A DNA stretch of 64,000 bases, taken from contig NC_092235.1 of NCBI RefSeq assembly GCF_036320965.1, positions 11,980,239 to 12,044,238 of the forward strand, given 5' to 3'. Origin of the DNA: Panulirus ornatus. Lineage: Eukaryota; Arthropoda; Malacostraca; Decapoda; Palinuridae. The position numbers and the translations under genes are program-made. Of the stretch, positions 25,460 through 53,887 are shown in pieces (within the stretch, counting starts at the first letter, position 1; each line of letters starts with the position of its first letter). The notes under the pieces were generated by a model. The model ran no database searches and had not been told where the DNA came from. It worked only from the letters and a program-made list of their open reading frames with translations.

Positions 25460-25461
<2 letters not shown>

Positions 25462-25510
25462 TCCCTAGGGATAGGGGATTAAGAATAATTCCCACGTATT
25501 CCCACGTATT
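25460..25510 (+). mobile_element. Stub of the family 5' leader
   Basis: ATCCCTAGGGATAGGGG and a doubled CCCACGTATT. It ends where LINE coding sequence (AGGGTGTTTTGGTCG) begins, skipping the whole endonuclease region. This could be a template-switch product or an internal deletion. Confidence 0.75.

Positions 25511-27490
<1,980 letters not shown>

Positions 27491-27909: not shown

Positions 27910-27985
<76 letters not shown>
27905..27985. repeat. (TA)n, about 80 bp
   Basis: Right edge of the LINE nest. Gypsy gag codons resume immediately after it on the - strand. Confidence 0.97.
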
Positions 27986-27988
<3 letters not shown>

Positions 27989-28247
27989 TTCTTCTCCACC
28001 CCAGTTTAGCATTAAGGTAATTATCACCTCATCCCTATTGTCATCTTTCTCAGAACTCAGTAGATATATCTTAAACTCTAGGTGGAATCTTCTCCAGTTC
28101 TTTGCTGTATTGCCTGATAATATCAGAGTTCACGATGTCGACCTTGGACGCTCATCCTGAACGTTGTAGGTGACCACAAAAATGGCACCTCAGTTCTTCC
28201 CTCCCACACAAGTGGTTTATCTTTATAGCCAGAAGCAAGTGAGACAA
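27986..28247 (-). pseudogene. Ty3/gypsy leader and gag, upstream half
   Basis: Read downward from 28247. After the primer-binding site comes a leader, then NTAKNWRRFHLEFKIYLL and RDEVITLMLNWGGEEL, the N-terminal gag pattern of Ty3/gypsy elements (N-W-x-x-F ... GEEAL-like). It breaks at a (TA)n tract. The next gag codons ([10 protein letters not shown]) are at 9000, so about 19 kb separate the two halves. Confidence 0.75.
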
Positions 28248-28264
28248 CCCCACATGTGACACCA
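28248..28264 (-). other. Primer-binding site of the gypsy element
   Basis: The - strand reads TGGTGTCACATGTGGGG directly after the 5' LTR end. It starts TGG, as expected for pairing with the CCA end of a tRNA, and resembles the TGGTGTCAgaagTGGG type of many gypsy elements. Confidence 0.7.
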
Positions 28265-28511
28265 TGTAATATGTGCCAAGTCAATGTGGCTGTAAGGTGA
28301 AGAAGTCAGAGGGAATGAAACAGCGTCTCCATAAATGGCGCCAAGCTATCGTTATTGTTTCAACAATACAGAATCGCACCTTAATCCCGTGCATCATGAC
28401 AAGTCCTTATAAAATTAATATGATATAAATGCCGAATACAAAACAACAAATGATACAATGTCATATGATGAAAATATATCTTCTATACAAACTGAAGTAA
28501 TTATCATTACA
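28265..28511 (-). repeat. Ty3/gypsy 5' LTR
   Basis: 247 bp. On the - strand it starts TGTAATGATAATTAC and ends CATATTACA, so it has TG...CA ends in a short inverted TGTAAT/ATTACA. It is collinear with 3592-3770 and about 60 bp longer. The outer end abuts minisatellite B with no spacer. Confidence 0.85.
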
Positions 28512-31500
28512 GTGAGTGTGTTACCATTGATGAGCGGTTGTATCCATACAGTGAGTGTGTTACCATTGATGAGTGATTGTATCCATACAGTGAGTGTGTT
28601 ACCATTGATGAGCGGTTGTATCCATACAGTGAGTGTGTTACCATTGATGAGTGATTGTATCCATACAGTGAGTGTGTTACCATTGATGAGTGATTGTATC
28701 CATACAGTGAGTGTGTTACCATTGATGAGCGGTTGTATCCATACAGTGAGTGTGTTACCATTGATGAGCGGTTGTATCCATACAGTGAGTGTGTTACCAT
28801 TGATGAGTGATTGTATCCATACAGTGAGTGTGTTACCATTGATGAGCGGTTGTATCCATACAGTGAGTGTGTTACCATTGATGAGCGGTTGTATCCATAC
28901 AGTGAGTGTGTTACCATTGATGAGTGATTGTATCCATACAGTGAGTGTGTTACCATTGATGAGTGATTGTATCCATACAGTGAGTGTGTTACCATTGATG
29001 AGCGGTTGTATCCATACAGTGAGTGTGTCACCACTTATGAGTGATTGTATCCATACAGTGAGTGTGTTACCATTGATGAGCGGTTGTATCCATACAGTGA
29101 GTGTGTTACCATTGATGAGTGATTGTATCCATACAGTGAGTGTGTTACCATTGATGAGCGGTTGTATCCATACAGTGAGTGTGTTACCATTGATGAGTGA
29201 TTGTATCCATACAGTGAGTGTGTTACCATTGATGAACGGTTGTATCCATACAGTGAGCGTGTTACCATTGATGAGCGGTTGTATCCATGCAGTGAGTGTG
29301 TTACCACTGATGAGCGGTTGTATCCATACAGTGAGCGTGTTACCATTGATGAGCGGTTGTATCCATGCAGTGAGTGTGTTACCACTGATGAGCGGTTGTA
29401 TCCATACAGTGAGTGTGTTACCATTGATGAGTGATTGTATCCATACAGTGAGTGTGTTACCACTGATGAGTGATTGTATCCATACAGTGAGTGTGTTACC
29501 ATTGATGAGCGTTTGTATCCATACAGTGAGTGTGTTGCCATTGATGAGTGATTGTATCCATACAGTGAGTGTGTTACCATTGATGAGTGATTGTATCCAT
29601 ACAGTGAGCGTGTTACCATTGATGAGTGATTGTATCCATACAGTGAGTGTGTTACCATTGATGAGCGGTTGTATCCATACAGTGAGCGTGTTACCATTGA
29701 TGAGCGGTTGTATCCATACAGTGAGTGTGTTACCATTGATGAGCGACTGTATCCATACAGTGAGCGTGTTACCACTGATGAGTGATTGTATCCATAAAGT
29801 GAGTGTGTTACCATTGATGAACGGTTGTATCCATACAGTGAGTGTGTTACCATTGATGAACGGTTGTATCCATACAGTGAGCGTGTTACCACTGATGAGC
29901 GGTTGTATCCATACAGTGAGTGTGTTACCATTGATGAACGATTGTATCCATACAGTGAGCGTGTTACCATGAGCAGTTGTATCCATACAGTGAGTGTTTT
30001 TCCATTAATGAGAGGTTGTATCCATAAAGTGAGTGTGTTAGAATTGATGAGCGGTTGTATCCATACAGGGAGCGTGTTACCATCGATGAGTGATTGTATC
30101 CATACAGTGATTGTGTTACCATTGATGAGCGTTTGTATCCATACAGTGAATGTTACCAATGATGAGTAATTGTATCCATACAGCGAGTGTGTTACCATTG
30201 ATGAGCGTTTGTATCCATACAGTGAATGTTACCATTGATGAGTGATTGTATCCATACAGTGAGTGTGTTAGAATTGATGAGCGGATGTATCCATACAGTG
30301 AGCTTGTTACCACTGATGAGCGGTTGTATCCATACAGTGATTGTGTTACCGTTGATGAGCGACTGTATCCATACAGTGAGCGTGTTGCCATGAGCGGTTG
30401 TATCCATACATTGATTGTGTTACCATTGATGAGCGATTGTATCCATACGGTGAGCGTGTTACCATTGATGAGCGATTGTATCCGTAAAATGATTGTGTTA
30501 CCATTGATGAGCGTTTGTATCCACACAGTGTGTTACCACTGATGAGCGTTTGTATCCATACAGTAAATGTTACCATTGATGAGTGATTGTATCCATACAG
30601 TGAGTGTGTTACCATTGATGCGCGTTTGCATCCATACAGTGAATGTTACCATTAATGAGTGATTGCATCCATACAGTGACTGTGTAACCACTGATGAGCG
30701 TTTGTACCTATACAGTGTGTTACCGTTGATGAGCGGTTGTATCCATACAGAGATTGTTTTACCATTGATGAGCGATTGTATCCATACAGTGAGCGTGTTA
30801 CCATTGATGAGCGATTGTATCCGTACAGTGAATGTGCTACCATTGATGAGCGGTTGTATCCATACAGTGTGCTACAATTGATGAGCGGTAGTAATCATAC
30901 AGTAAGTGTGTTACCACTGATGAGCGGTTGTATCTATACAGTGAGTGTGTTACCACTGATGAGTGATTGTATCCATACAGTGATTGTGTTACCACTGATG
31001 AGTGATTGTATCCATACAGTGATTGTGTTACCATTGATGAGCAGTTGTATCAATACAGAGACTATGTTACTAATGATGAGCGATTGTATCCATACAGTTT
31101 GTTACCAGTGATGAGCGGTTGTATCCATACAGTGAGCGTGTTACCATTGATGAGTGATTGTATCCATACAGTGAGTGTGTTACCACTGATGAGAGGTTGT
31201 ATCCATACAGTGAGTATTTCTCCATTGATGAGCGGTTGTATCCATACAGTGATTGTGTTAGAACTGATGAGCGGTTGTATCCATACACAGAGTGCGTTAC
31301 CATTGATGAGTGATTGTATCCATACAGTGATTGTGTTACCATTGATGGGCAGTTGTATCAATACAGAGAGTATGTTACTAGTGATGAGCGATTGTATCCA
31401 TACAGTTTGTTACCAGTGATGAGCGGTTGTATCCATACAGTGAGCGTGTTACCATTGATGAGTGATTGTATCCATACAATGAGTGTGTTACCACTGATGA

Positions 31501-34500
31501 GAGGTTGTATCCATACAGTGAGTGTGTTACCATTGATAAGCGGTTGTATCCATACAGTGAGTGTTTTACCATTGATGAGCAGTTGTATCCATAAAGTGAG
31601 TGTGTTACATTGATGAGTGGTTGTATCCATACAGTGAGTGTGTTACCACTGATGAGCCATTGTAATCATACAGTGAGCGTGTTACCATTGATGAGCGGTT
31701 GTATCCATACAGTGAGCGTATTACCATTGATGAGCAGTTGTATCCATACAGTGAGTGTGTTACTAATGATGAGTGATTGTATCCATACAGTGAGTGTGTT
31801 ACCATTGATGAGAGGTTGTAATCATACAGCGAGCGTGTTCCCAATGATGGGCGGTTGTATCCATACAGTGAGCGTGTTACCAGTGATGAGCGGTTGTATC
31901 CATACAGTGAGTGTGTTACCATTGATGAGCGGTTGTATCCACAGAGTGAGTGTGTTACCACTGATGAGCGATTGTATCCACACAGTGAGTCTGTTATCGC
32001 TGATGAGTGAATGTATCCATACAGTGAGTGTGTTACCACTGATGAGCGGTTGTATCCATACGGTGAGTGTGCTACCATTGATGAGCGATTGTATCTATAC
32101 AGTGAGTGTGTTACCATTGATGAGTGATTGTATCCATACAGTGAGTGTGTTACCAGTGATGAGCGGTTGTAATCATACTGTGAGTGTGTTACCATCGATG
32201 AGCAGTTGTATCCATACAGTGAGTGTGTTATCATTGATGAGCAGTTGTATCCATACGGTGAGTGTGTTACCACTGATGCGCGGTTGTAGTCATACAGTGA
32301 GCGTGTTACCATTGATGAGCTGTTGTATCCATACAGTGAGTGTGTTACCATTGACGTGCGGTCGTATCCATACAGTGAGTGTGTTATCAATGATGAGTGA
32401 TTGTATCCATACGATGAGTGTGTTACCATTGATGAGTGGTTGTATCGATACAGTGAGTATGTTACCATTGATGAACGGTTGTATCCATACAGTGAATGTG
32501 TTACCATTGATGAGTGATTGTATCCATACAGTGAGTGTGTTACCATTGACGAGCGGTTGTATCCATACAGTGAGTGTGTTACCATTGATGAGTGATTGTA
32601 TCCATACAGTGATTGTGTTAGAACTGATGAGCGGTTGTATCCATACACAGAGTGCGTTACCACTGATGAGTGATTGTATCCAGACAGTGATTGTGTTACC
32701 ATTGATGAGCAGTTGTATCAATACAGAGGGTATGTTACTAATGATGAGCGATTGTATCCATACAGTTTGTTACCAGTGATGAGCGGTTGTATCCATACAG
32801 TGAGTGTGTTACTAATGATGAGTGATTGTATCCATACAGTGAGTATGTTACCATTGATGAGAGGTTGTAATCATACAGTGAGCGTGTTACCAATGATCAG
32901 TGATTGTATCCATACAGGGAGTGTGTTACTAATGATGAGCGATTGTATCCATACAGTGTGTTACCATTGATAAGCGGCTGTATCCATAAAGTGAGCGTGT
33001 TACCATTGATGAGTGATTGTATCCATACAGTGTGTTACCATTGATGAGCGGTTGTATCCATACAGTGAGCGTGTTACCACTGATGAGTGATTGTATCCAT
33101 ACAGTGAGTGTGTTACCATTGATGAGCGGTTGTATCCATACAGTGAGTGTGTTACCATTGATGAGTGATTGTATCCATACAGTGAGTGTGTTACTAATGA
33201 TGAGCGATTGTATCCATACAGTGTGTTACCACTGATGAGCGGTTGTATCCATAAAGTGAGCGTGTTACCATTGATGAGTGATTGTATCCATACAGTGTGT
33301 TACCATTGATGAGCGGTTGTATCCATAGTGAGTGTGTTACCATTGATGAGTGATTGTATCCATACAGTGAGTGTGTTACCATTGATGAGTGGTTGTATCC
33401 ATACAGTGAGTGTGTTACCAGTGATGAGCGATTGTGTCCATACAGTGAGTGTGTTATCACTGATGAGTGTTTGTATCCATACAGTGTGTTACTAATGATG
33501 AGCGATTGTATCCATACAGAGTGTTACCATTGATGAGTGATTGTATCCATACAGTGAGTGTGTTACTAATAATGAGCGATTGTATCCATACAGTGTGTTA
33601 CCATTCATGAGCGGTTGTATCCATAAAGTGAGCGTGTTACCATTGATGAGCGATTGTATCCATACAGTAAGCGTGTTTCCATTGATGAGCGGTTGTATCC
33701 ATACAGTCAGTGCTTTTTCCATAGATAAGCGATTGTATCCACACAGTGTGTTACCACTGATGAGCGGTTGTATCCATACAGTGAGGGTGTTGCCATTGAT
33801 GAGCGGTTGTATCCATACAGTGAGTGTGTTACCATTGATGAGTGGTTGTACCCATACAGTGAGTGTATTACCATTGATGAGCGATTGTATCGATACAGTG
33901 AGTATGTTACCATTGATGAACGGTTGTATCCATACAGTGAATGTGTTACCATTGATGAGTGATTGTATCCATACAGTGAGTGTGTTACCATTGATGAGCG
34001 ATTGTATCCATACAGTTAGCGTGTTACCATTGATGAGTGATTGTATCCATACAGTGATTGCGCCACCAATGATGAGCTGTTGCATCCATACAGTGACTGT
34101 GTTACCATTGATGAGCGGTTGTATCCATACAGTGAGCTTGTTGCCATTGATGAGCGGTTGTATTCATACAGTGAGTGTGTTACCATTGATGAGCGATTGT
34201 GTCCATACAGTGAGTATGTTATCATTGATGAGTGTTTGTATCCATACAGTGAGTGTGTTACTAATGATGAGCGATTGTATCCATACAGTGTGTTACCATT
34301 CATGAGCGGTTGTATCCATAAAGAGAGCGTGTTACCATTGATGAGCGATTGTATCCATACAGTAAGCGTGTTTCCATTGATCAGCGGTTGTATCCATACA
34401 GTGAGTGTTTTTTCCATAGATAAGCGATTGTATCCACACAGTGTGTTACCACTGATGAGCGGTTGTATCCATACAGTGAGGGTGTTGCCATTGATGAGCG

Positions 34501-35088
34501 GTTGTATCCATACAGTGAGTGTGTTACCATTGATGAGTGGTTGTACCCATACAGTGAGTGTATTACCATAGATGAGCGATTGTATCGATACAGTGAGTAT
34601 GTCACCATTGATGAACGGTTGTATCCATACAGTGAATGTGTTACCATTGATGAGTGATTGTATCCATACAGTGAGTGTGTTACCATTGATGAGCGATTGT
34701 ATCCATACAGTTAGCGTGTTACCATTGATGAGTGATTGTATCCATACAGTGATTGCGCCACCAATGATGAGCGGTTGTATCCATACAGTGATTGTGTTAC
34801 CATTGATGAGCGGTTGTATCCATACAGTGAGCTTGTTACCATTGATGAGCGGTTGTATCCATACAGTGAGTGTGTTACCAATGATGAGTGATTGTATTCA
34901 TACAGTGAGTGTGTTACCAATGATGAGTGATTGTATTCATACAGTGAGTGTTACCATTGATGCGTAGCGATTGTATCCATACACTCAGTGTTTTACCATT
35001 GACGAGCGATTGTATCCATACAATGAGAGTGTTACAATTGATGACCGGTTTTAATCATACAGTAAGTGTGCTACAATTGATGAGTGGT

Positions 35089-35090
<2 letters not shown>

Positions 35091-35184
<94 letters not shown>
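35091..35184. repeat. (TA)n expansion inside minisatellite B, copy 1
   Basis: About 94 bp of TA following GAGTGGTTG within an array unit. The same unit at 39705-39715 has only about 11 bp of TA, so the tract expanded in place. Confidence 0.95.
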
Positions 35185-35187
<3 letters not shown>

Positions 35188-37283
35188 AGCGTGTTGCCAT
35201 TGATGAGCGGTTGTATTCATACAGTGAGTGTTACTATTGATGCGCAGCGATTGTATCCATACAGTGAGTGTGTTACCATTGATGAGCAGTTGTATCAATA
35301 CAGAGAGTATGTTTCTAATGATGAGCGATTGTATCCATACAGTTTGTTACCAGTGATGAGCGGTTGTATCCATACAGTGAGTGTGTTACTAATGATGAGC
35401 GATTGTATCCATACAGTGTGTTACCACTGATGAGCGGTTGTATCCATAAAGTGAGCGTGTTACCATTGATGAGTGATTGTATCCATACAGTGTGTTACCA
35501 TTGATGAGCGGTTGTATCCATAGTGAGTGTGTTACCATTGATGAGTGATTGTATCCATACAGTGAGTGTGTTACCATTGATGAGTGGTTGTATCCATACA
35601 GTGAGTGTGTTACCAGTGATGAGCGATTGTGTCCATACAGTGAGTGTGTTATCACTGATGAGTGTTTGTATCCATACAGTGTGTTACTAATGATGAGCGA
35701 TTGTATCCATACAGAGTGTTACCATTGATGAGTGATTGTATCCATACAGTGAGTGTGTTACTAATAATGAGCGATTGTATCCATACAGTGTGTTACCATT
35801 CATGAGCGGTTGTATCCATAAAGTGAGCGTGTTACCATTGATGAGCGATTGTATCCATACAGTAAGCGTGTTTCCATTGATGAGCGGTTGTATCCATACA
35901 GTCAGTGCTTTTTCCATAGATAAGCGATTGTATCCACACAGTGTGTTACCACTGATGAGCGGTTGTATCCATACAGTGAGGGTGTTGCCATTGATGAGCG
36001 GTTGTATCCATACAGTGAGTGTGTTACCATTGATGAGTGGTTGTACCCATACAGTGAGTGTATTACCATTGATGAGCGATTGTATCGATACAGTGAGTAT
36101 GTTACCATTGATGAACGGTTGTATCCATACAGTGAATGTGTTACCATTGATGAGTGATTGTATCCATACAGTGAGTGTGTTACCATTGATGAGCGATTGT
36201 ATCCATACAGTTAGCGTGTTACCATTGATGAGTGATTGTATCCATACAGTGATTGCGCCACCAATGATGAGCTGTTGCATCCATACAGTGACTGTGTTAC
36301 CATTGATGAGCGGTTGTATCCATACAGTGAGCTTGTTGCCATTGATGAGCGGTTGTATTCATACAGTGAGTGTGTTACCATTGATGAGCGATTGTGTCCA
36401 TACAGTGAGTATGTTATCATTGATGAGTGTTTGTATCCATACAGTGAGTGTGTTACTAATGATGAGCGATTGTATCCATACAGTGTGTTACCATTCATGA
36501 GCGGTTGTATCCATAAAGAGAGCGTGTTACCATTGATGAGCGATTGTATCCATACAGTAAGCGTGTTTCCATTGATCAGCGGTTGTATCCATACAGTGAG
36601 TGTTTTTTCCATAGATAAGCGATTGTATCCACACAGTGTGTTACCACTGATGAGCGGTTGTATCCATACAGTGAGGGTGTTGCCATTGATGAGCGGTTGT
36701 ATCCATACAGTGAGTGTGTTACCATTGATGAGTGGTTGTACCCATACAGTGAGTGTATTACCATAGATGAGCGATTGTATCGATACAGTGAGTATGTCAC
36801 CATTGATGAACGGTTGTATCCATACAGTGAATGTGTTACCATTGATGAGTGATTGTATCCATACAGTGAGTGTGTTACCATTGATGAGCGATTGTATCCA
36901 TACAGTTAGCGTGTTACCATTGATGAGTGATTGTATCCATACAGTGATTGCGCCACCAATGATGAGCGGTTGTATCCATACAGTGATTGTGTTACCATTG
37001 ATGAGCGGTTGTATCCATACAGTGAGCTTGTTGCCATTGATGAGCGGTTGTATCCATACAGTGAGTGTGTTACCAATGATGAGTGATTGTATTCATACAG
37101 TGAGTGTGTTACCAATGATGAGTGATTGTATTCATACAGTGAGTGTTACCATTGATGCGTAGCGATTGTATCCATACACTCAGTGTTTTACCATTGACGA
37201 GCGATTGTATCCATACAATGAGAGTGTTACAATTGATGACCGGTTTTAATCATACAGTAAGTGTGCTACAATTGATGAGTGGT

Positions 37284-37285
<2 letters not shown>

Positions 37286-37370
<85 letters not shown>
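37286..37370. repeat. (TA)n expansion inside minisatellite B, copy 2
   Basis: About 85 bp of TA at the position corresponding to 35091 in the 2.2-kb duplicate. It is 10 bp shorter than copy 1. Confidence 0.95.
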
Positions 37371-37372
<2 letters not shown>

Positions 37373-40300
37373 AGCGTGTTGCCATTGATGAGCGGTTGTA
37401 TTCATACAGTGAGTGTTACTATTGATGCGCAGCGATTGTATCCATACAGTGAGTGTGTTACCATTGATGAGCAGTTGTATCAATACAGAGAGTATGTTTC
37501 TAATGATGAGCGATTGTATCCATACAGTTTGTTACCAGTGATGAGCGGTTGTATCCATACAGTGAGTGTGTTACTAATGATGAGTGATTGTATCCATACA
37601 GTGAGTATGTTACCATTGATGAGAGGTTGTAATCATACAGTGAGCGTGTTACCAATGATCAGTGATTGTATCCATACATGGAGTGTGTTACTAATGATGA
37701 GCGATTGTATCCATACAGTGTGTTACCATTGATAAGCGGCTGTATCCATAAAGTGAGCGTGTTAACATTGATGAGTGATTGTATCCATACAGTGTGTTAC
37801 CATTGATGAGCGGTTGTATCCATACAGTGAGCGTATTACCACTGATGAGTGATTGTATCCATACAGTGAGTGTGTTACCATTGATGAGCGGTTGTATCCA
37901 TACAGTGAGTGTGTTACCATTGATGAGTGATTGTATCCATACAGTGAGTGTGTTACTAATGATGAGCGATTGTATCAATACAGTGTGTTACCACTGATGA
38001 GCGGTTGTATCCATAAAGTGAGCGTGTTACCATTGATGAGTGATTGTATCCATACAGTGTGTTACCATTGATGAGCGGTTGTATCCATAGTGAGCGTGTT
38101 ACCATTGATGAGTGATTGTATCCATACCGTGAGTGTGTTACCATTGATGAGTGGTTGTATCCATACAGTGAGTGTGTTACCAGTGATGAGCGATTGTGTC
38201 CATACAGTGAGTGTGTTATCATTGATGAGTGTTTGTATCCATACAGTGAGTGTGTTACTAATGATGAGCGATTATATCCATACAGAGTGTTACCATTGAT
38301 GAGTGACTGTATCCACACAGTGAGTGTGTTACTAATGATGAGCGATTGTATCCATACAGTGTGTTACCATTCATGAGCGGTTGTATCCATAAAGTGAGCG
38401 TGTTACCATTGATGAGCAATTGTATCCATACAGTAAGCGTGTTTCCATTGATGAGCGGTTGTATCCATACAGTGAGTGTGTTACCATTGATGAGTGGTTG
38501 TACCCATACAGTGAGTGTATTACCAATTGATGAGCGATTGTATCGATACAGTGAGTATGTTACCATTGATGAACGGTTGTATCCATACAGTGAATGTGTT
38601 GCCATTGATGAGTGATTGTATCCATACAGTGAGTGTGTTACCATTGATGAGCGATTGTATCCATACAGTTAGCGTGTTACCGTTGATGAGTGATTGTATC
38701 CATACAGTGATTGCGCCACCAATGATGAGCTGTTGTATCCATACAGTGATTGTGTTACCATTGATGAGCGGTTGCATCCATACAGTGAGCTTGTTGCCAT
38801 TGATGAGCGGTTGTATCCATACAGTGAGTGTGTTACCATTGATGAGCGATTGTGTCCATACAGTGAGTGTGTTATCATTGATGAGTGTTTGTATCCATAC
38901 AGTGAGTGTGTTACTAATGATGAGCGATTGTATCCATACAGTGTGTTACCATTCATGAGCGGCTGTATCCATAAAGTGAGCGTGTTACCATTGATGAGCG
39001 ATTGTATCCATACAGTAAGCGTGTTTCCATTGATGAGCGGTTGTATCCATACAGTCAGTGTTTTTTCCATAGATAAGCGATTGTATCCACACAGTGTGTT
39101 ACCACTGATGAGCGGTTGTATCCATACAGTGAGGGTGTTGCCAATGATGAGCGGTTGTATCCATACAGTGAGTGTGTTTCCATTGATGAGTGGTTGTACC
39201 CATACAGTGAGTGTATTACCAGTGATGAGCGATTGTATCGATACAGTGAGTATGTTACCACTGATGAACGGTTGTATCCATACAGTGAATGTGTTACCAT
39301 TGATGAGTGATTGTATCCATATAGTGAGTGTGTTACCATTGATGAGCGATTGTATCCATACAGTTAGCGTGTTACCATTGATGAGTGATTGTATCCATAC
39401 AGTGATTGCGCCACCAATGATGAGCTGTTGTATCCATACAGTGATTGTGTTACCATTGATGAGCGGTTGTATCCATACAGTGAGCTTGTTGCCATTGATG
39501 AGCGGTTGTATCCATACAGTGAGTGTGTTACCAATGATGAGTGATTGTATTCATACAGTGAGTGTTACCATTGATGCGTAGCGATTGTATCCATACACTC
39601 AGTGTGTTACCATTGACGAGCGATTGTATCCATACAATGAGAGTGTTACAATTGATGACCGGTTTTAATCATACAGTAAATGTGCTACAATTGATGAGCG
39701 GTTGTATATATATATTGAGCTTGTTGCCATTGATGAGCGGTTGTATTTATACAGTGAGTGTTACTATTGATGCGCAGCGATTGTATCCATACAGTGAGTG
39801 TGTTACCATTGATGAACGGTTGTATCAATACAGTGATTGTGTTACTATTGTTGACCGTTTGTATTCATAGGGTGAGTGTTACCATTAATGCGCAACGATT
39901 GTATCCATACAGTAAATGTGTTACCACTGGTGAGCGATAGTATCCATACAGTGTGTTACCATTGATGAGTGGTTTTATCCATACAGTGAATGTGTTACCA
40001 CTGATGAGTGATTGTATTCATTGAGTGTGTTACCATTGATAAGTGATTGTATCCATACAGTGAGTGTGTTACCAGTGATGAGTGATTGTACTCATACAGT
40101 GTGTTACCATTGATGAGTGGCTTTATCAATACAGTGAATGTGTTACCACTGATGAGTGATTGTATTCATAGAGTGTGTTACCATTGATGAGCGGTTGTAT
40201 CCATACAGAGAATGTGTTACCACTGATGAGTGATTGTATCCATACAGTGAGTGTGTTACCATTGATGAGCGATTGTATATAACCAGTGAATGTTACCATT

Positions 40301-43300
40301 GATGAGTGATTGTATTCATACAGTGAGTGTGTTACCATTGATGAGCGATTGTATCCATACCGTGTGTTACCACTGATGAACGGTTGTATCCATACAGGGA
40401 ATGTGTTACCATTGATGAGCGATTGTATCCATACAGTGTGTTACCATTGATGAACGGTTGTATCCATACAGTGAGTGTGTTACCATTGATGAGTGATTGT
40501 ATCCATGGAGTGAGTGTGTTACCACCGATGAGCGATTGTATCCATACATTGAATGTTACCATTGATGAGTGATTGTATCCATACAGTGAATGTGTTACCA
40601 TTGATGAGCGATTGTATCCATACAGTGAATGTTACCAGTGATGAGTGATTGTATCCATAAAGTGAATGTTACCATTGATGAGTGATTGTATCCATACAGT
40701 GAGTGTGTTACCATTGATGAGCGATTGTATCCATACAGTGATTGTTACCATTGATGAGTGATTGTATCAATACAGTGAGTGTGTTACCATTTATGAGCGA
40801 TTGTATTCATACAATGAGCGTGTTACCATTGATGAGCGATTGTATTCATACAATGAGCGTGTTACCATTAATGAGCGATTGTATTCATACAATGAGCGTG
40901 TTAACATTGATGAGCGATTGTATTCATACAGTGTCTTACCAATGATGAGCGGTTGTATCCATACAGTGAGCGTGTTACCGTTGATGAGCGGTTGTATCCA
41001 TACAGTGAATGAGTTACCATTGATGAGCGATTGTATCCATACAATGAGCGTGTTACCATTGATGAGCGATTGTATTCATACAGTGTGTTACCACTGATGA
41101 GTGGTTGTATCCATCCATACAGTAAATGTGTTACCACTGATGAGTGGTTGTATCCATACAGTGAGTGTGTTACCACTGATGAGCCGTTGTAATCATACAG
41201 TGAGCGTGTTACCATTGATGAGCGGTTGTATCCATACAGTGAGCGTTTTACCATTGATGAGCGGTTGTATCCATAAAGTGAGTGTGTTACTAATGATGAG
41301 TGATTGTATCCATACAGTGAGTGTGTTACTATTGATGAGAGGTTGTAATCATACAGTGAGCGTGTTACCATTGATGAGTGATTGTATCCATACAGTGAGT
41401 GTGTTACCATTGATGAGTGATTGTATCCATACAGTGTGTTACCATTGATGAGTGGTTGTATCCATACAGTGAAAGTGTTACCACTGATGAGTGATTGTAT
41501 CCATACAGTGTGTTACCATTGATGAGCGGTTGTATCCATACAGTGAATGTGTTACCACTGATGAGTGATTGTATCCATACAGTGAGTGTGTTACCATTGA
41601 TGAGCGATTGTATCCATACAGTGAATGTTACCATTGATGAGTGATTGTATCCATACAGTGAGTGTGTTACCATTGATGAGCGATTGTATCCATACCGTGT
41701 GTTACCATTGATGAACGGTTGTATCCATGCAGGGAATGTGTTACCATTGATGAGCGATTGTATCCATACAGTGTGTTACCATTGATGAACGGTTGTATCC
41801 ATACAGTGAGTGTGTTACCACTGATGAACGGTTGTATCCATACAGGGAATGTGTTACCATTGATGAGCGATTGTATCCATGCAGTGTGTTACCATTGATG
41901 AACGGTTGTATCCATACAGTGAGTGTGTTACCATTGATGAGCGATTGTATCCATGCAGTGTGTTACCATTGATGAACGGTTGTATCCATACAGTGAGTGT
42001 GTTACCAGTGATGAGTGATTGTGTCCATACAGTGAGTGTGTTACCACTGATGAGCGATTGTATCCATACAGTGAATGTTACCATTGATGAGTGATTGTAT
42101 CCATACAGTGAATGTGTTACCATTGATGAGCGATTGTATCCATACAGTGAATGTTACCATTGATGAGTGATTGTATCCATACAGTGAATGTTACCATTGA
42201 TGAGTGATTGTATCCATACAGTGAATGTGTTACCATTGATGAGCGATTGTATCCATACAGTGATTGTTAACATTGATGAGTGATTGTATCCATACAGTGA
42301 GTGTGTTACCATTGATGAGCGATTGTATCCATGCAGTGTGTTACCATTGATGAACGGTTGTATCCATACAGTGAGTGTGTTACCACTGATGAGCGATTGT
42401 ATCCATACAGTGAGTGTTACCATTGATGAGTGACTGTATCCATACAGTGAATGTGTTACCATTGATGAGCGATTGTATCCATACAGTGAATGTTACCATT
42501 GATGAGTGATTGTATCCATACAGTGAATGTGTTACCATTGATGAGCGATTGTATCCATACAGTGATTGTTAACATTGATGAGTGATTGTATCCATACAGT
42601 GAATGTTACCATTGATAAACGATTGTATCCATACAGTGAATGTTTTACCATTGATGAGCGGTTGTATCCATACAGTGAGTGTTACCAATGATGAGCGGTT
42701 GTATCCATACAGTGAGTGTGTTATAATTGATGAGTGATTGTATCCTTACAGTGAATGTGTTACCATTGATGAGTGATTGTATGCATAGTGAATGTGTTAC
42801 CATTGATGAGCGATTGTATCCATACAGTGAATGTTACCATTGATGAGCGATTGTATCCATACAGTGAATGTTACCATTGACAAACGATTGTATCCATACA
42901 GTGAATGTTTTACCATTGATGAGCGGTTGTATCCATACAGTGAGTGTGTTACCATTGATGAGCGGTTGTACCCATACAGTGAGTGTGTTTCCAATGATGA
43001 GCGGTTGTATCCATACAGTGAGTGTGTTATCATTGATGAGTGATTGTATCCATACAGTGAATGTGTTACCATTGATGGGTGATTGTATCCATACAGTGAG
43101 TGTGTTATCATTGATGAGTGATTGTATCCATACAGTGAATGTGTTACCATTGATGAGTGATTGTATCCATGATCAATGTGTTACCATTGATGGGTGATTG
43201 TATCCATACAGTGAGTGTGTTATCATTGATGAGTGATTGTATCCATACAGTGAATGTGTTACCATTGATGAGTGATTGTATCCATACAGTGAATGTTTTA

Positions 43301-46300
43301 CCATTGATGAGCAGTTCTAATCCATAAAGTGAGTGTGTTACATTGATGAGTGGTTGTATCCATACAGTGAGTGTGTTACCACTGATGAGCCATTGTAATC
43401 ATACAGTGAGCGTGTTACCATTGATGAGCGTTGTATCCATACAGTGAGCGTATTACCATTGATGAGCAGTTGTATCCATACAGTGAGTGTGTTACTAATG
43501 ATGAGTGATTGTATCCATACAGTGAGTGTGTTACCATTGATGAGAGGTTGTAATCATACAGCGAGCGTGTTACCAATGATGGGCGGTTGTATCCATACAG
43601 TGAGCGTGTTACCATTGATGAGCGGTTGTATCCATACAGTGAGTGTGTTACCATTGATGAGCGGTTGTATCCACAGAGTGAGTGTGTTACCACTGATGAG
43701 CGATTGTATCCACACAGTGAGTCTCTTATCGCTGATGAGTGAATGTATCCATACAGTGAGTGTGTTACCACTGATGAGCGGTTGTATCCATACGGTGAGT
43801 GTGCTACCATTGATGAGCGATTGTATCTATACAGTGAGTGTGTTACCATTGATGAGTGATTGTATCCATACAGTGAGTGTGTTACCACTGATGAGCGGTT
43901 GTATCCATACGGTAAGTGTACTACCATTGATGAGCGGTTGTATCTATACAGTGAGTGTGTTACCATTGATGAGTGATTGTATCCATACAGTGAGTGTGTT
44001 ACCAGTGATGAGCGGTTGTAATCATACTGTGAGTGTGTTACCATCGATGAGCAGTTGTATCCATACAGTGAGTGTGTTATCATTGATGAGCAGTTGTATC
44101 CATACGGTGAGTGTGTTACCATTGATGCGCGGTTGTAATCATACAGTGAGCGTGTTACCATTGATGAGCTGTTGTATCCATACAGTGAGTGTGTTACCAT
44201 TGACGTGCGGTCGTATCCATACAGTGAGTGTGTTATCAATGATGAGTGATTGTATCCATACGATGAGTGTGTTACCATTGATGAGTGGTTGTATCGATAC
44301 AGTGAGTATGTTACCATTGATGAACGGTTGTATCCATACAGTGAATGTGTTACCATTGATGAGTGATTGTATCCATACAGTGAGTGTGTTACCATTGACG
44401 AGCGGTTGTATCCATACAGTGAGTGTGTTACCATTGATGAGTGATTGTATCCATACAGTGATTGTGTAGAACTGATGAGCGGTTGTATCCATACACAGAG
44501 TGCGTTACCACTGATGAGTGATTGTATCCATACAGTGATTGTGTTACCATTGAGAGCAGTTGTATCAATACAGAGGGTATGTTACTAATGATGAGCGATT
44601 GTATCCATACAGTTTGTTACCAGTGATGAGCGGTTGTATCCATACAGTGAGTGTGTTACTAATGATGAGTGATTGTATCCATACAGTGAGTATGTTACCA
44701 TTGATGAGAGGTTGTAATCATACAGTGAGCGTGTTACCAATGATCAGTGATTGTATCCATACAGGGAGTGTGTTACTAATGATGAGCGATTGTATCCATA
44801 CAGTGTGTTACCATTGATAAGCGGCTGTATCCATAAAGTGAGCGTGTTACCATGATGAGTGATGTATCCATACAGTGTGTTACCATTGATGAGCGGTTGT
44901 ATCCATACAGTGAGCGTGTTACCACTGATGAGTGATTGTATCCATACAGTGAGTGTGTTACCATTGATGAGCGGTTGTATCCATACAGTGAGTGTGTTAC
45001 CATTGATGAGTGATTGTATCCATACAGTGAGTGTGTTACTAATGATGAGCGATTGTATCCATACAGTGTGTTACCACTGATGAGCGGTTGTATCCATAAA
45101 GTGAGCGTGTTACCATTGATGAGTGATTGTATCCATACAGTGTGTTACCATTGATGAGCGTTGTTATCCATAGTGAGCGTGTTACCACTGATGAGTGATT
45201 GTATCCATACAGTGAGTGTGTTACCATTGATGAGTGGTTGTATCCATACAGTGAGTGTCTTACCAGTGATGAGCGATTGTGTCCATACAGTGAGTGTGTT
45301 ATCACTGATGAGTGTTTGCATCCATACAGTAAGTGTGTTACTAATGATGAGCGATTGTATCCATACAGAGTGTTACCACTGATGAGTGATTGTATCCATA
45401 CAGTGAGTGTGTTACTAATAATGAGCGATTGTATCCATACAGTGTGTTACCATTCATGAGCGGTTGTATCCATAAGTGAGCGTGTTACCATTGATGAGCG
45501 ATTGTATCCATAACAGTAAGCGTGTTTCCATTGATGAGCGGTTGTATCCATACAGTCAGTGTTTTTTTCCATAGATAAGCGATTGTATCCACACAGTGTG
45601 TTACCACTGATGAGCGGTTGTATCCATACAGTGAGGGTGTTGCCATTGATGAGCGGTTGTATCCATACAGTGAGTGTGTTACCATTGATGAGTGGTTGTA
45701 CCCATACAGTGAGTGTATTACCATTGATGAGCGATTGTATCGATACAGTGAGTATGTTACCATTGATGAACGGTTGTATCCATACAGTGAATGTGTTGCC
45801 ATTGATGAGTGATTGTATCCATACAGTGAGTGTGTTACCATTGATGAGCGATTGTATCCATACAGTTAGCGTGTTACCGTTGATGAGTGATTGTATCCAT
45901 ACAGTGATTGCGCCAACAATGAAGAGCTGTTGTATCCATACAGTGATTGTGTTACCATTGATGAGCGGTTGTATCCATACAGAGAATGTGTTACCGCTGA
46001 TGAGTGATTGTATCTATACAGTGAGTGTGTTACCATTGATGAGCGATTGTATATAACCAGTGAATGTTACCATTGATGAGTGATTGTATTCATACAGTGA
46101 GTGTGTTACCATTGATGAGCGATTGTATCCATACCGTGTGTTACCACTGATGAACGGTTGTATCCATACAGGAATGTGTTTACCATTGATGAGTGATTGT
46201 ATCCATGGAAGTGAGTGTGTTACCACTGATGAGCGATTGTATCCCACATGTTTCATTGATAGTGTTTACCATAAGTGAAGTTTGAGATGATTGTATCCAT

Positions 46301-48730
46301 ACAGTGATTGTTACCATGATGAGTGATTGTATCCATACAGTGAATGTTACCATTGATGAGGTGATTACTGAGTATTACCATTGATGAAGATTGATATACA
46401 TGATGTTACCATTGATGATGATTGTATCCATACAGTGAGTGTGTTACCATTGATGAGCGATTGTATCCATACAAGATGTTGTTACCATTGATGAGGATTG
46501 TATCCATACATGAGTGTGTTACCATTTATGAGCGATTGTATTCATACAATGAAACGTGTTACCATTGATGAGCGATTGTATTCATACAATGAGGTTACCA
46601 TTGATGAGCGGTTGTATCCATACAGTGAGCGTGTTACCGTTGATGAGCGGTTGTATCCATACAGTGAATGAGTTACCATTGATGAGCGATTGTATCCATA
46701 CAATGAGCGTGTTACCATTGATGAGCGATTGTATTCATACAGTGTGTTACCACTGATGAGTGGTTGTATCCATCCATACAGTAAATGTGTTACCACTGAT
46801 GAGTGGTTGTATCCATACAGTGAGTGTGTTACCATTGATGAGCCGTTGTAATCATACAGTGAGCGTGTTACCATTGATGAGCGGTTGTATCCATACAGTG
46901 AGCGTGTTACCACTGATGAGCGGTTGTATCCATAAAGTGAGTGTGTTACTAATGATGAGTGATTGTATCCATACAGTGAGTGTGTTACTATTGATGAGAG
47001 GTTGTAATCATACAGTGAGCGTGTTACCATTGATGAGTGATTGTATCCATACAGTGAGTGTGTTACCATTGATGAGCGATTGTATCCATACAGTGAATGT
47101 TACCATTGATGAGTGATTGTATCCATACAGTGAGTGTGTTACCATTGATGAGCGATTGTATCCATACCGTGTGTTACCATTGATGAACGGTTGTATCCAT
47201 GCAGGGAATGTGTTACCATTGATGAGCGATTGTATCCATACAGTGTGTTACCATTGATGAACGGTTGTATCCATACAGTGAGTGTGTTACCACTGATGAA
47301 CGGTTGTATCCATACAGGGAATGTGTTACCATTGATGAGCGATTGTATCCATGCAGTGTGTTACCATTGATGAACGGTTGTATCCATACAGTGAGTGTGT
47401 TACCATTGATGAGCGATTGTATCCATGCAGTGTGTTACCATTGATGAACGGTTGTATCCATACAGTGAGTGTGTTACCAGTGATGAGTGATTGTGTCCAT
47501 ACAGTGAGTGTGTTACCACTGATGAGCGATTGTATCCATACAGTGAATGTTACCATTGATGAGTGATTGTATCCATACAGTGAATGTGTTACCATTGATG
47601 AGCGATTGTATCCATACAGTGAATGTTACCATTGATGAGTGATTGTATCCATACAGTGAATGTTACCATTGATGAGTGATTGTATCCATACAGTGAATGT
47701 GTTACCATTGATGAGCGATTGTATCCATACAGTAATTGTTAACATTGATGAGTGATTGTATCCATACAGTGAGTGTGTTACCATTGATGAGCGATTGTAT
47801 CCATGCAGTGTGTTACCATTGATGAACGGTTGTATCCATACAGTGAGTGTGTTACCATTGATGAGCGATTGTATCCATACAGTGAATGTTACCATTGATG
47901 AGTGATTGTATCCATACAGTGAATGTGTTACCATTGATGAGCGATTGTATCCATACAGTGAATGTTACCATTGATGAGTGATTGTATCCATACAGTGAAT
48001 GTGTTACCACTGATGAGCGATTGTATCCATACAGTGATTGTTAACATTGATGAGTGATTGTATCCATACAGTGAATGTTACCATTGATAAACGATTGTAT
48101 CCATACAGTGAATGTTTTACCATTGATGAGCGGTTGTATCCATACAGTGAGTGTGTTACCAATGATGAGCGGTTGTATCCATACAGTGAGTGTGTTATAA
48201 TTGATGAGTGATTGTATCCTTACAGTGAATGTGTTACCATTGATGAGCGATTGTATCCATACAGTGAATGTTACCATTGATGAGCGATTGTATCCATACA
48301 GTGAATGTTACCATTGACAAACGATTGTATCCATACAGTGAATGTTTTACCATTGATGAGCGGTTGTATCCATACAGTGAGTGTGTTACCATTGATGAGC
48401 GGTTGTACCCATACAGTGAGTGTGTTTCCAATGATGAGCGGTTGTATCCATACAGTGAGTGTGTTATCATTGATGAGTGATTGTATCCATACAGTGAATG
48501 TGTTACCATTGATGGGTGATTGTATCCATACAGTGAGTGTGTTATCATTGATGAGTGATTGTATCCATACAGTGAATGTGTTACCATTGATGAGTGATTG
48601 TATCCATACAGTGAATGTGTTACCATTGATGGGTGATTGTATCCATACAGTGAGTGTGTTATCAATGATGAGTGATTGTATCCATACAGTGAATGTGTTA
48701 CCATTGATGAGTGATTGTATCCATATAGTA

Positions 48731-49560
48731 GACGTTGTAGGTACATTCAGTATATGCCATCATATCCTGCCAGATATGATCTGAAATCCTGGGTTGTGGC
48801 ACCTGCTGACACATATGAAGTGTTGAATACTGAAATGTATACAGGTGAAGATGAAGAGAGAACTCATGAATGACGAATGCATTTGTACAAACAACTCGCA
48901 TGGAACGGGAAGAAATGTCACGTGTGACAATTTTTTCACCGTCTTGAAATGAGGTACAAAACCTGTATGAAAAAACCTGTCGTTAGTTGTAAGCGTTCAT
49001 GGTAACAGAAGATAAGTCCTGAAGGAACTGCTGGTGGTAAACCAGAATTTGTTTGAAATATAAGAATGTGTTTTTACTGTCGAGCCAGAAAGAGATAAGA
49101 AATTGAGTGATGGTAACAAAAAGAAACCAGAAGTGATACTGTGTCATAATTCAACTAAAGGATGTTGTTGACTGCGTAGATGAGATTTAAAGATTTAAAT
49201 ACAGGAGTACAAGATGGCATGTTCCCGTGTGGTGTATCATGGTTCATCTGGCACAAGCTAGAAAGTTCTCCACACATATGAGCTTCGCGGTTAAGAGCCA
49301 CAGCAGAAGAGTTTTCCTTCGTGAACTGGTCGCATGCGGCTCTGAGTCACAAGACTAGGGAGGCCACAGATGCTGGTACTGCTTCATGCAGTTCAGGAGA
49401 GAACCGACGTACTGCATCTGTTTCTTCAAATCTATGTTCAAGATGTTCATTGTGGCCAAGGAATAAAGATATCAAACTAGTGCAAAATGCAAGTTGTGTT
49501 GTGAATTCGTATGTTGTGAACATTATTGTGTAACATGTGGTGAAGTAGTCCTCACATTTC
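48731..49560 (+). pseudogene. piggyBac-type transposase, catalytic and C-terminal part
   Basis: piggyBac enzymes excise and insert DNA at TTAA using three Asp residues. Visible here: RRCRYIQYMPSYPARYDLK, then LKSWVVA and EVLNTEMYTG; GRNVTCDNFFT with the second catalytic Asp (codon near 48925); KKPEVILCHNSTKG followed after a frameshift by VDCVDE with the third Asp (near 49170). At the end is the cysteine-rich C-terminal finger (KCKLCCEFVCCEHYCVTC, about 49490-49550). The first Asp lies in the last unit of minisatellite B (48706-48708). Several stops and frameshifts make it a pseudogene. About 280 residues are recognisable, roughly half a normal transposase. Terminal repeats and TTAA target copies were not identified. 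Confidence 0.85.
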
Positions 49561-49807
49561 ATACTGATTTAAAGAACACGCGTTTCATTTTAATAAGTTC
49601 CTGTATTTTTCGTTAAATTTCTATAATCTTCTTTCAAAAGGATTTTAGTTTTCGCATCAATTATGAGTTATCGCGTATAATACAGTTTCATGCAACACAC
49701 TTGGTTTATATCATTCCTTCAGATATTATACTGAAAAAATTGGATGGGGTCAAATTGAGCCGTCATACACCGATGTAAAGTGGAAATGTCATGCATCCTC
49801 AGGTTAA

Positions 49808-50790
49808 GTAATCTTTACATGAAATTCTTTGAAACAAAATTACTAAGGATATCTTACCTTCTATCAGGTTTAGGTATGTAAATGAAGTTCTTTGTGTTTG
49901 GTCAACAAATAAAAATTCACAAACATTTCTCCCCTTACTTAAAGATTTAGTACCTTCCATCAAATTTACTGTACGAAATGAAAAAAATGGTGTTACCATT
50001 TCTAGATTGCATGATCCATAGGGACAGAAACTAGTTTAAGTTTAACATATACAGATAACTTACCAATGTTTGCTCATATATCCATTATTACTCATCTCAA
50101 CATGACAGAGTTAAATCATCATTCCAGACATTGTTCCTTAGGGCATTACGTATTTGCAGTCTAGAGTATATTAATGACTTTGAGAAGATATATTCTACTG
50201 GATCCAAGTTAAAGTATCGTATATCTTTCATTGATATATCACTTAAGTTAGCAAAGAAATAATTTTGAAGTTAAAACCAAACCTTCCTTTGACACCAAGA
50301 ATCTTTTAGTTCTCCCTTTTAGTGATAATTTTACATTACTTCCCATGTTAATTAAGTCCTTTAATGTAAATATTGCCTTCAACAATAACAGTACTATGAA
50401 GAATACCTTAATAAGAAAAAATTCTGCAGGCTGTGTTTACGCAATCCCTTGTAAAAGCTGTAATAGATTTTATATTGGACAAACTGGTAAGGATCTTTAC
50501 GTTAGACTTAAACAACATAAGCATAGTATAAGAACAGGACAAGAATAAAATATTTTGTTTAATCATGTTAAAAACTATGATCATTGTACTGACTGGAGTA
50601 ATGCCATCTCAGTTATTAACTCTTAAGTCCAGTACCACGAGAAATATCACTGAATATTCTATTATCAAGTAAACAAAGAATTGTAAAATAAACATTAGTA
50701 AAGGTCTCTACAAATTGGACAGGTTTGTCGTAGGCAAAATTTGTAAACAGTTCCCTTTCCTGTCCGCATAACAAAAATCTTATGACAGGC
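49808..50790 (+). pseudogene. Penelope-like element: RT and GIY-YIG endonuclease (decayed)
   Basis: Penelope-like elements use a telomerase-like RT joined to a GIY-YIG nuclease. From 49808: NLYMKFFETKLL, then RYVNEVLCVW (the RYVDD-type catalytic motif, Asp decayed to Asn/Glu), LVPSIKFTVRNEKNG, FLDCMIHRDRN, YSSQHDRVKSSFQTLF, LRALRICSLEYINDF and KLKYRISFIDISLKLAKK. The GIY-YIG domain is at 50430-50545: GCVYAIPCKSCNRFYIGQTG and KDLYVRLKQHKHSIRTGQE. It ends with SKGLYKLDRFVVGKICK. Frameshifts separate these blocks. The N-terminal half of the RT is absent. Bases 49561-49807 show no recognisable feature. Confidence 0.85.
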
Positions 50791-51400: not shown

Positions 51401-51500
51401 NNNNNNNNNNNNNNNNNNNNNNNNNNNNNNNNNNNNNNNNNNNNNNNNNNNNNNNNNNNNNNNNNNNNNNNNNNNNNNNNNNNNNNNNNNNNNNNNNNNN
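51401..51500. other. Assembly gap (100 N)
   Basis: Exactly 100 unknown bases between a (TA)n tract and the middle of a LINE endonuclease domain. The true length is unknown. Confidence 0.99.
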
Positions 51501-53887
51501 GATCATTATCTTGTGGAGGCGAAGGTGAAGATTTGTAGGGGTGTTCATAAAAGAAGAGAGAATGTTGGGGTGAAGAGAGTGGTGATAGTGAGTGAGCTTG
51601 CGAAGGAGACTTGTTTGAGGAAGTACCAGGAGAGACTGATTCCAGAATGGAGAAAGGCGGGAGCGAAGGACGTAGGGGGAGTGGGGGAGGAATGGGATGT
51701 ATTCAGTGAAGCAGTGATGGCTTGCGCAAAAGATGCTTGTGGCATGAGAAGCGTGGGAGGTGGGCAGATCAGAAAGGATAGTGAATAGTGGGATTAAGAA
51801 GTAAGATTATTAGTGAAAGAGAAGAGAGAGGCATTTGGACGATTTTTGCGAGGAAATAGTGCATACGACTGGGAGATGTATTAAAGAAAGAGGCAGGAGT
51901 TCAAGAGAAAGGTGCAAGTGGTGAGAAAGAGGGCAAATGAGAGTTGGGGGTTAGAGTATCATTAAATTCTAGGGAGAATAAAATGATGTTTTGGAAGGAG
52001 GTGAATAAATTGCGTAAGACAAGAAAACAAATTGGAGCATCGGTGAAGGGGGCTAATGGGAAGGTAATAACAAGTAGTGGTGATGTGATAAGGAGATGGA
52101 GTGAGTGTTTTATGGGAGGGTACTGATTGATAGGGTGAAGGCATGTACAGAGCATCAGATTGGGGAAGATCAGTGTGGTTTCAGAAGTGGTAGAGGATGT
52201 GTGGATCAGGTGTTTTGCTTTGAAGAATGTATGTGAGAAATACTTAGAAAAGCAAATGGATTTGTATGTAGCATTCATGGATCAGGAGAAGGAATAAGAT
52301 AGAGTTGATAGAGATAGGTATTAGATAGGTATAGATAGGTATTAAGAGTTTATGGTGTGGGAGGTAAGTTGCTAGAAGCAGTGAAAAGTTTTTATCGAAG
52401 ATGTAAGGCATGTGTACGAGTAGGAAGAGAGGAAAGTGATTGGTTCCCAGTGAATGTCGGTTTGTGGCAGGGGTGCGTGATGTCCCCATGGTTCTTTAAT
52501 TTGTTTATGGATGGGGTTGTTAGGGAGGTGAATGCAAGGTTTTTGGAGAGATGGGCAATGGAGGGGCAAGTATGCAGTTTGTTGTGCATGAGAGGGCTTG
52601 GGAAGTGGGTAAGTTGTTGTTCGATGATGATACAGACTTGGTGGCTGATTCGGGAGAGAAACTGCAGAAGCTGGTGACTGAGTTTGGTAGAGTGTGTGAA
52701 AGAAGAAAGCTGAGAGTACATGTGAATAAGAGCAAGGTCATTAGATACAGCAGGGTTGAAGGACAAGTCAATTGGGACGTAAGTTTAAATGGAGTAAAAA
52801 ACTGGAGGAAGGGAAGCGTTTTAGATATCTGGGAGTGGATTTGGCAGCGGAAGGAACCATGGAAGCGAAAGCGAGACACAGGGTGGGGGAGGGGGCGAAG
52901 GTTGTGGGAGCGTTGAAGAATGTGTGGAAGGCGATAAGATTATCTCCGAAAGCATGGGAGCGTTGAAGACTATGTGGAAGGCGATAACATTATCTCGGAA
53001 AGCAAAATTGGGTATGTTTGAAGGAATAGTGGTTCCAACAATGTTATATGGTTGTGAGGCATGGGCTATACAAGGGGTTGTTCGGAGGAGGGTGGATGTG
53101 TTGGAAATGAGATGTTTGAGGACAATATGTGGTGTGAGGTGGTTTGATCGAGTAAGTAATGAAAGGTTGAGAGAGATGTGTGATAATAAAAAGAGTGTTG
53201 TTGAGAGATTAGAAGGTGTGTGGAAATTGTTTGGTCACATAGAAAGAATGAGTGAGGAAAGATTGACCAAGAGGATATATGTGTCAGAGGTGGAGGGAAC
53301 GAGGAAAAGTGGGAGAACAAATTGGAGGTGGAAGAATGGAGTGAAAAGATTTTGAGGCATTGGGGCCTGAACATTCAGGAGGGTGAAAGGCGTGCAAGGA
53401 ATAGAGTGAATTGGGACGATGTGGTATACTAGGGTCGACGTGCTGTCAATGGATTTAACCAGGGTATATGAAGCGTCAGGGGTAAACAATGCAAAGTTTT
53501 GTGTGGCATGGATGTGTAAAGGGAGCTGTGGTTTCGGTGCATCATACATGACAGCTAGAGACCGAGTGTAAACGAATGTGGCCTTTGTTATCTTTTCCTA
53601 GCGCTACCTCGCGCGCAAGCGGGGGGGAAGGGATGTCATTTCACGTGTGGCGGGGTGGCGACGGTAATGAATATAGGGAGCAAGTATGAATTATGTACAT
53701 GTGTATATATGTATATGTCTGTGTATGCATATATATGTATACGTTGAAATGTATAGGTATGTACTTGTGCGTGTGTGGACGTGTATGTATATACATGTGC
53801 ATGTGGGTGGGTTGGGCCATTCTTTCGCGTGTCCTTGCGGTACTTCGCTAACGCGGGAGACAGCAACAAAATATAAAATATAAATAT

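Follow-up and report, generated by a model that had tools for sequence, protein, structure and literature searches.

The window analysed here is a stretch of 64,000 nucleotides from the lobster Panulirus ornatus (contig NC_092235.1, positions 11,980,239 to 12,044,238, forward strand; coordinates below count from its first letter). At its center lies a block of about 20 kb built from tandem 39-bp units, each amounting to 13 codons that read SECVTIDE(R/*)LYPY. On the right, this array passes in frame into the decayed remainder of a piggyBac transposase gene, and on the left it abuts a sequence resembling the end of a long terminal repeat (LTR) element. We argue that the array very probably descends from a segment of that transposase gene. 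Table 1 gives the coordinates of the array, its borders and its internal duplications.

Table 1. Features of the repeat array and of the sequences that adjoin it (TRF, Tandem Repeats Finder; PSSM, position-specific scoring matrix)
Feature	Coordinates	Strand	Basis
LTR-like sequence TGTAAT...ATTACA, 247 bp, outer end abutting the array	28265..28511	-	terminal hexamers, TGG-initial primer-site-like sequence
Minisatellite/satellite array, 526 full ~39-bp units of piggyBac transposase codons	28512..48729	+	TRF, wrap-around alignment, PSSM
Second-scale duplication, 31408-34284 vs 43257-46132, 95.1% over 2885 bp, offset ~11.85 kb	31408..46132	+	pairwise comparison
Large internal duplication, 32986-35299 vs 35180-37484, 98.1% over 2319 bp, offset ~2.19 kb, including (TA)n	32986..37484	+	pairwise comparison
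Last unit ECVTIDE*LYPYS, a copy of the repeat that also forms transposase codons	48691..48729	+	translation, Pfam, PDB alignment
Decayed piggyBac transposase remainder (RRCRYIQYMPS... toward the C-terminus), with stops and frame changes	48730..49538	+	tblastn, Pfam PF13843
Candidate 3' non-coding piggyBac end, closing at TTAA 49804-49807 (CCTCAGG directly before TTAA)	49539..49807	+	position and sequence only

The repeat array

Wrap-around alignment of the units divides the array into 528 segments, and TRF, run on the window, reports 28508-48729 with a period of 39, 527 copies, 84% matches and 4% indels. The start of the array was set at 28512; the TACA at 28508-28511 fits the repeat and the LTR-like end alike. 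Segments of 39 bp predominate (381 of the 528), accompanied by 60 of 37 bp, 44 of 35 bp and 43 of other lengths, and the mean divergence of a unit from the consensus is 9.5%. The consensus unit, AGTGAGTGTGTTACCATTGATGAGCGATTGTATCCATAC, translates as SECVTIDERLYPY, which is also the commonest peptide among the 378 units without gap or insertion (49 units, followed by SECVTIDE*LYPY with 31). By unit size the array is a minisatellite, a term that the available part of PMC7859515 applies to units of 10-100 bp.

The ninth codon of the unit, which corresponds to a Gln in the transposase, could be scored in 523 units and is CGG in 166, TGA in 144, CGA in 131, TGG in 24, CAG in 15, CAA in 1 and something else in 42. 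An earlier note on this DNA had remarked that some units keep the Gln; this is true of the 15 CAG units and the single CAA unit, but such units are rare (16/523). Among these 16, five pairs show a spacing of 11.7-11.9 kb and one pair a spacing of 2.2 kb, as mutual copies would. The CAG and CAA units do not clearly establish which codon is ancestral, because CpG decay of CGG and CGA could also give rise to them.

The junction with the transposase remnant

From 48691 the last unit reads on in frame as ECVTIDE*LYPYSRRCRYIQYMPSYPARYDLKSWVVAPADTYEVLNTEMYTGEDEERTHE until a TGA at 48871. The one TGA inside this frame stands at the Gln codon; past 48871, stops and frame changes accumulate. Within the last unit, the GAT at 48706-48708 is the codon aligned to Asp268 of the Trichoplusia piggyBac transposase, the first catalytic Asp. 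Against Pfam DDE_Tnp_1_7 (PF13843, cut-off 22.4), the translation scores 28.2 bits when the last unit, together with the tail of the unit before it, is included, whereas the piece starting at RRC scores 15.7 bits and falls under the cut-off; a longer read-through reaches 35.6 bits. The sole solved structure matched was the Trichoplusia piggyBac transposase (PDB 6x67/6x68), over residues 264-380, with the TIDE of the last unit lying on TIDEQLLGFRGRC.

The closest relative to the remnant among the matches listed, P0002, is 48% identical to it. Residues 90-415 of P0002 gave tblastn matches at 48658-48975, 48887-49162 and 49056-49538, so that the remnant can be traced to 49538, corresponding to residue 415 of 420 (32% identity over 171 columns). 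The Asp triad of piggyBac transposases is catalytic. In the remnant, the first Asp (TIDE) and the second (VTCDNFF) are kept, the third, which stands in GGVD in the relatives, is lost from a copy that has TKGCC*LRR, and the triad is therefore incomplete. The piggyBac copy is a pseudogene; its family descent is not in doubt and no activity is claimed for it. No second piggyBac end was found in the window, where the sole match to the candidate 3' end is that end itself.

Copy number of the segment in relatives

Relatives of the transposase came from two protein searches (23 matches, and the best 120 of 1010), which yielded 138 distinct usable sequences; a multiple alignment covered 11 of the 23 from the first search. 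For the PSSM, the segment was located by a pattern, which succeeded in 119 of the 138 relatives; the remaining 19 were not used. Same-genome origin is known for none of the 138.

In the relatives, the 13-codon segment directly precedes RGRCxxIQYMPS-like text. P0002 carries it in YQHSECVTVDEQLYPFRGRCSYIQYMPS, CYQHSECVTVDEQLYPFRGRCSYIQYMPSKPAKYGLKFW and YQHSECVTVDEQLYPFRGRC; relatives of the same group read YRHTECVTVDEQLYPYRGRC (P0025), YQHSECVTVDEQLYSFKGRC (P0026) and YNHSECTTVDEQLYPFRGRC (P0028). Since SECV precedes TIDE in P0002, SECV is native and not a junk linker. As judged from these proteins, the monomer is native to the transposase at either end and comprises 13 consecutive transposase codons. 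The motif [ST][IVL]DEQL occurs once in 96 of the 138 relatives, twice in none, and is unmatched in 42. A looser motif matches 121 of them and has an extra match in P0018 only, whose other TLDE/SVDE strings sit within its first 30 residues. By the stricter motif, the segment is single-copy in the unexpanded relatives that match it.

The PSSM gave the consensus unit 40.1 bits, compared with -0.57 for the best of 2000 shuffled units, and scored the consensus units of two other arrays in the window at about -20 and -23. These shuffles reject a chance likeness of the monomer to the TIDE motif. When the Arg of the consensus is replaced by the Gln of the relatives, the resulting SECVTIDEQLYPY is identical at 11 of 13 residues to P0002, P0025, P0004 and P0006. 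Both the PSSM and the residue identities thus make the monomer homologous to the transposase segment. In viral contigs, the monomer had 0 matches, and the 49 pattern matches for piggyBac relatives included none that could be confirmed.

Several proposals of the earlier note are borne out by these results: a 20-kb array of about 500 units of 39 bp, a last unit that runs in frame, with one TGA inside, into a piggyBac transposase, and a monomer of 13 transposase codons. The note had further looked to a profile alignment that takes in the last unit, as is found both with DDE_Tnp_1_7 and with 6x67 at TIDE/Asp268, and to related transposons in which the sequence before RRCRYIQYMPS-type text is the monomer segment; the latter was observed in relatives from elsewhere.

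Internal structure of the array

Self-comparison of the array covered seven chosen pairs, compared pairwise. Besides the two duplications in Table 1, 41308-43251 and 46772-48729 are 95.3% identical over 1960 bp. Weaker pairs among the seven are 28512 with 29800 (88%) and 31500 with 43233 (89.7% over 4.9 kb). A second copy at 97% identity or higher exists for 74 of the 101 200-bp windows of the array. The (TA)n tracts at 35091-35185 and 37286-37370, 95 and 85 bp long, were duplicated with their surroundings. Judging from their sequence, these near-identical blocks of 2-3 kb are probably traces of unequal exchange or block duplication. The 37- and 35-bp variants were probably themselves amplified, because these lengths are common to many units.

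The left border

The LTR-like sequence at 28265-28511 resembles 3657-3768, with 76% identity over 118 bp, and the latter adjoins a purine tract. Ty3/gypsy-like pieces lie on the minus strand at 3590-9000 and 27980-28511, split by about 19 kb of DNA rich in long interspersed nuclear elements (LINEs), and possibly belong to one insertion. Two Pfam domains pass their thresholds on the minus strand, an RNase H (RT_RNaseH, 60.4 bits) at 7937-8230 and an integrase zinc domain (Integrase_H2C2, 29.4 bits) at 7492-7668; a weak integrase core (rve) at 4481-4651 on the same strand scores 19.1 bits, under its cut-off of 32.6, and the gag-like and reverse transcriptase-like pieces had no Pfam match. A target-site duplication of the LTR was not found: the 5 bases to its right, GTGAG, have no match left of the similar piece at 3592. 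The left border is probably the end of a candidate Ty3/gypsy-like LTR element. Because this LTR-like end borders the array, the present left edge is probably not the original start of the array.

Origin of the array

Taken together, these observations make it very probable that the array arose from a tandem duplication of 13 codons inside a piggyBac transposase gene and then expanded. In such a scheme, exactly 13 codons (39 bp) surrounding the codon of the first catalytic Asp would have been duplicated in tandem in a piggyBac copy, and the duplication would have grown into a long minisatellite array. The first duplication may have come about by slippage or unequal pairing between short similar stretches standing 13 codons apart in the gene. 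In 27 of the 119 relatives, the 13-codon interval has a Tyr at either end; all 27 belong to the 35 with LY[PSA]. In the closest relatives, Tyr-x-His-Ser and Tyr-Pro-Tyr/Phe-Arg stand 13 codons apart. Since the duplication breaks the catalytic domain, the element would have been dead already or have been killed by it. Afterwards, the units would have gained stops and losses of 2 and 4 bp without constraint, and the later insertion of an LTR retrotransposon at or within the array would have produced the present left border. Intact copies of the element would be expected to carry SECVTIDEQLYPY before RGRCRYIQYMPS.

A number of observations weigh against this origin. At the Gln codon, the majority monomer has Arg or a stop, not Gln, and LYPY is followed by Ser-Arg in the remnant but by Arg-Gly or Lys-Gly in close relatives. 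The N-terminal half of the transposase was not found in the window, where tblastn with the N-terminus of P0002 gave only chance matches (best E 0.24) and the first 224 residues of P0025 gave none at E up to 10. Nor was a piggyBac 5' terminal repeat found in the window, and the upstream junction of gene and array is unseen. The direct repeat that may have seeded the duplication is suggested by protein sequence, and assembly could account in part for the near-identical large blocks. In Pfam, the cysteine-rich tail piece RCSLWPRNKD... on its own had no match at all, and five tandem copies of the monomer peptide on their own matched neither DDE_Tnp_1_7 nor any zinc family. The five other Pfam families that the tandem peptide drew were set aside as repeat noise, with Quaking_NLS at 26.7 bits against a cut-off of 22.9 and no single stretch passing.

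The junction could also have formed in other ways. The segment may have been amplified elsewhere, in another copy of the element or in extrachromosomal circles, and the array joined to the present locus by recombination at the native segment. Recombination between an array and a single 39-bp segment would yield an identical in-frame junction, and such an exchange fits the missing N-terminal half; moreover, the units near the junction are not clearly older, the last bin having a mean divergence from the consensus of 7.7% as compared with 4.7-11.8% in the other bins. However, this course of events needs an extra event, and we consider it unlikely.

It is also conceivable, with a rather small probability, that the assembly is at fault and that the block duplications or the length of the array are wrong. 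While a mean unit divergence of 9.5% allows reads to be placed, and the duplicated (TA)n tracts are unequal (95 vs 85 bp), the blocks are nearly identical (98.1% over 2.3 kb) and the contig contains a 100-N gap at 51401-51500. The length of the array, in any case, has no bearing on the junction with the gene.

We give very little credence to an older, unrelated satellite beside which a piggyBac remnant landed, its likeness to TIDE being fortuitous. DNA transposons and LTR elements do insert into satellites, and LTR-like sequence is present at the other edge of the array. Such an insertion, however, would place a terminal repeat at the border and not the middle of a gene, whereas here the transposase segment, in frame, makes up the last unit of the array, and the unit fits 13 consecutive transposase codons, on both sides of TIDE, far above shuffles. 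Selection for a coding repeat, for instance a repetitive protein domain made from transposase codons, is equally hard to credit. The units do measure a multiple of three bases, and 246 of the 378 gap- and insertion-free ones are free of stops in the transposase frame. However, TGA ranks second among the codons at the Gln position (144/523), 104 of the 528 segments are 2 or 4 bp short and shift the frame, and the longest open frames at the left end of the array (517 and 529 amino acids) follow other frames and extend into unrelated flank. We regard the array as non-coding DNA that evolves passively, and propose no host or transposon function for it.

Relation to known satellites

Its probable descent from a piggyBac transposase gene places the array beside a few satellites derived from mobile elements. 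The closest counterpart is CficCl-61-40 of Chenopodium, whose source is tnp2, the transposase of the CACTA-like element Jozin; in the part of that report available to us, a broken tnp2 has a 39-bp array of 94.4 monomers attached to it, the start monomer being a 41-bp tnp2 fragment (Belyayev et al., 2020; PMC7320549). The two cases share a monomer of about 40 bp (39 bp in Chenopodium contig 22) from a transposase coding domain, a Class II parent, and an array that is fused to a broken transposase, shares its orientation and has a border monomer that is part of the gene; in the lobster, 48691-48729 runs in frame into 48730. They differ in several respects, as far as the available part of PMC7320549 goes. 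First, CficCl-61-40 belongs to a plant and a CACTA element, whereas the present case is from an animal and a piggyBac element. Second, the parent motif of CficCl-61-40 occurs only in deletion derivatives and is absent from complete tnp2, whereas the lobster monomer is traced to its parent at both ends. Third, the longest Chenopodium array attached to tnp2 has 94.4 monomers as compared with 526 full units here. Finally, CficCl-61-40 is recorded from several species and loci, whereas the lobster array is known from one locus. The earlier note had called a transposase-derived satellite with its parent still attached unusual; unusual it is, although the Chenopodium tnp2 case is a precedent. A satellite made of transposase codons is thus of a kind already known from Chenopodium, here with an animal, piggyBac example.

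Other systems share fewer traits. According to the same available part of PMC7320549, satellite arrays also arise from an internal region of Atenspm, an En/Spm-like transposon of Arabidopsis; as in the lobster, an internal part of a DNA transposon was amplified in tandem, the element in that case being an En/Spm one of a plant. According to the accessible part of PMC9659126, satellites come from LTRs, untranslated regions, terminal repeats and some open reading frames (ORFs); CficCl-61-40 is the transposase-derived case among the entries seen there, and retrotransposon-ORF-like satellites include HinfI (CR1 ORF2, chicken), PROsat (L1 ORF2) and E3900 (gag, rye). Like HinfI, PROsat and E3900 as presented there, the lobster array has part of a mobile-element coding region in its monomers; unlike these Class I cases with partial similarity, its whole 13-codon monomer matches and its parent is attached.

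Tetris of Drosophila virilis is, by the title of PMC4079207, a foldback transposon. The lobster array resembles it, to the extent that this source is available, in that a DNA transposon supplies the building blocks of an emerging satellite. The Tetris repeats reportedly come from within the element and not from transposase codons. In the present case, the parent is a member of the piggyBac superfamily (PF13843; 6x67/6x68), represented by a pseudogene copy without its N-terminal half in the window.

No earlier piggyBac-derived satellite was among the matches listed in full-text searches, mostly of open papers, for satellites together with piggyBac, for coding or transposase origins and for decapod satellites. 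Likewise, the available parts of PMC12628747, PMC10742464, PMC13130569, PMC7859515, PMC12694884, PMC12732532, PMC10454600, PMC6947457, PMC12324416, PMC12405879 and PMC8909793 contain no piggyBac case.

With the lobster array, satellites made of transposase codons come not only from a plant CACTA element but also from an animal piggyBac element. A single piece of DNA contains its monomer, the 13-codon borders and the downstream part (about half) of the parent gene, and the unexpanded state is seen in relatives. Many satellites are not known to have a traceable ancestor. The array renders the first step of satellite birth testable, namely whether a short direct repeat in a gene fixes the length of the monomer. 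The plant CACTA and piggyBac cases have monomers of nearly equal length and share the anatomy of an attached parent. One could speculate, though we hold it to be improbable, that they arose independently and that the codons around the first catalytic Asp of cut-and-paste transposases are a recurrent birthplace of satellites of about 40 bp, and that the monomer has become a genome-wide family in the lobster lineage, repeatedly reseeded from piggyBac copies with a direct repeat spaced by 39 bp.

Other sequences in the window

A second 39-bp array, at 945-3495, consists of 66 copies of ATCAAGTGTTGAGTCTGTGTTACATGTTGTATAACCAAG with 94% matches and ends about 100 bases from the LTR-like piece at about 3592-3770. 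No kinship with the main array is claimed: at best, the two units align locally over 14 columns, with a score that 41 of 1000 shuffled units also reach. Their equal period may be a coincidence. Arrays of 30 and 23 bp built on TCACCACACACA...GATGG occupy the left end of the window (1-672), and at 61872-62879 a 36-bp array of 28 copies with 92% matches, which also has a 322-bp higher-order period, gives way to (TA)n.

Many LINE-like open frames lie in 9308-27100 and 51500-59600, several of them beside (AT)n tracts. The longest, 9311-12310, encodes an endonuclease and a reverse transcriptase (RVT_1, 125.7 bits); across 56% of its length it matches a protein of Panulirus ornatus (Decapoda, Palinuridae) with 97% identity. 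Just right of the piggyBac remnant, a GIY-YIG nuclease piece with one stop (50429-50623, 32.1 bits) suggests a Penelope-like element. Farther along, the 100-N gap directly follows an (AT)n tract.

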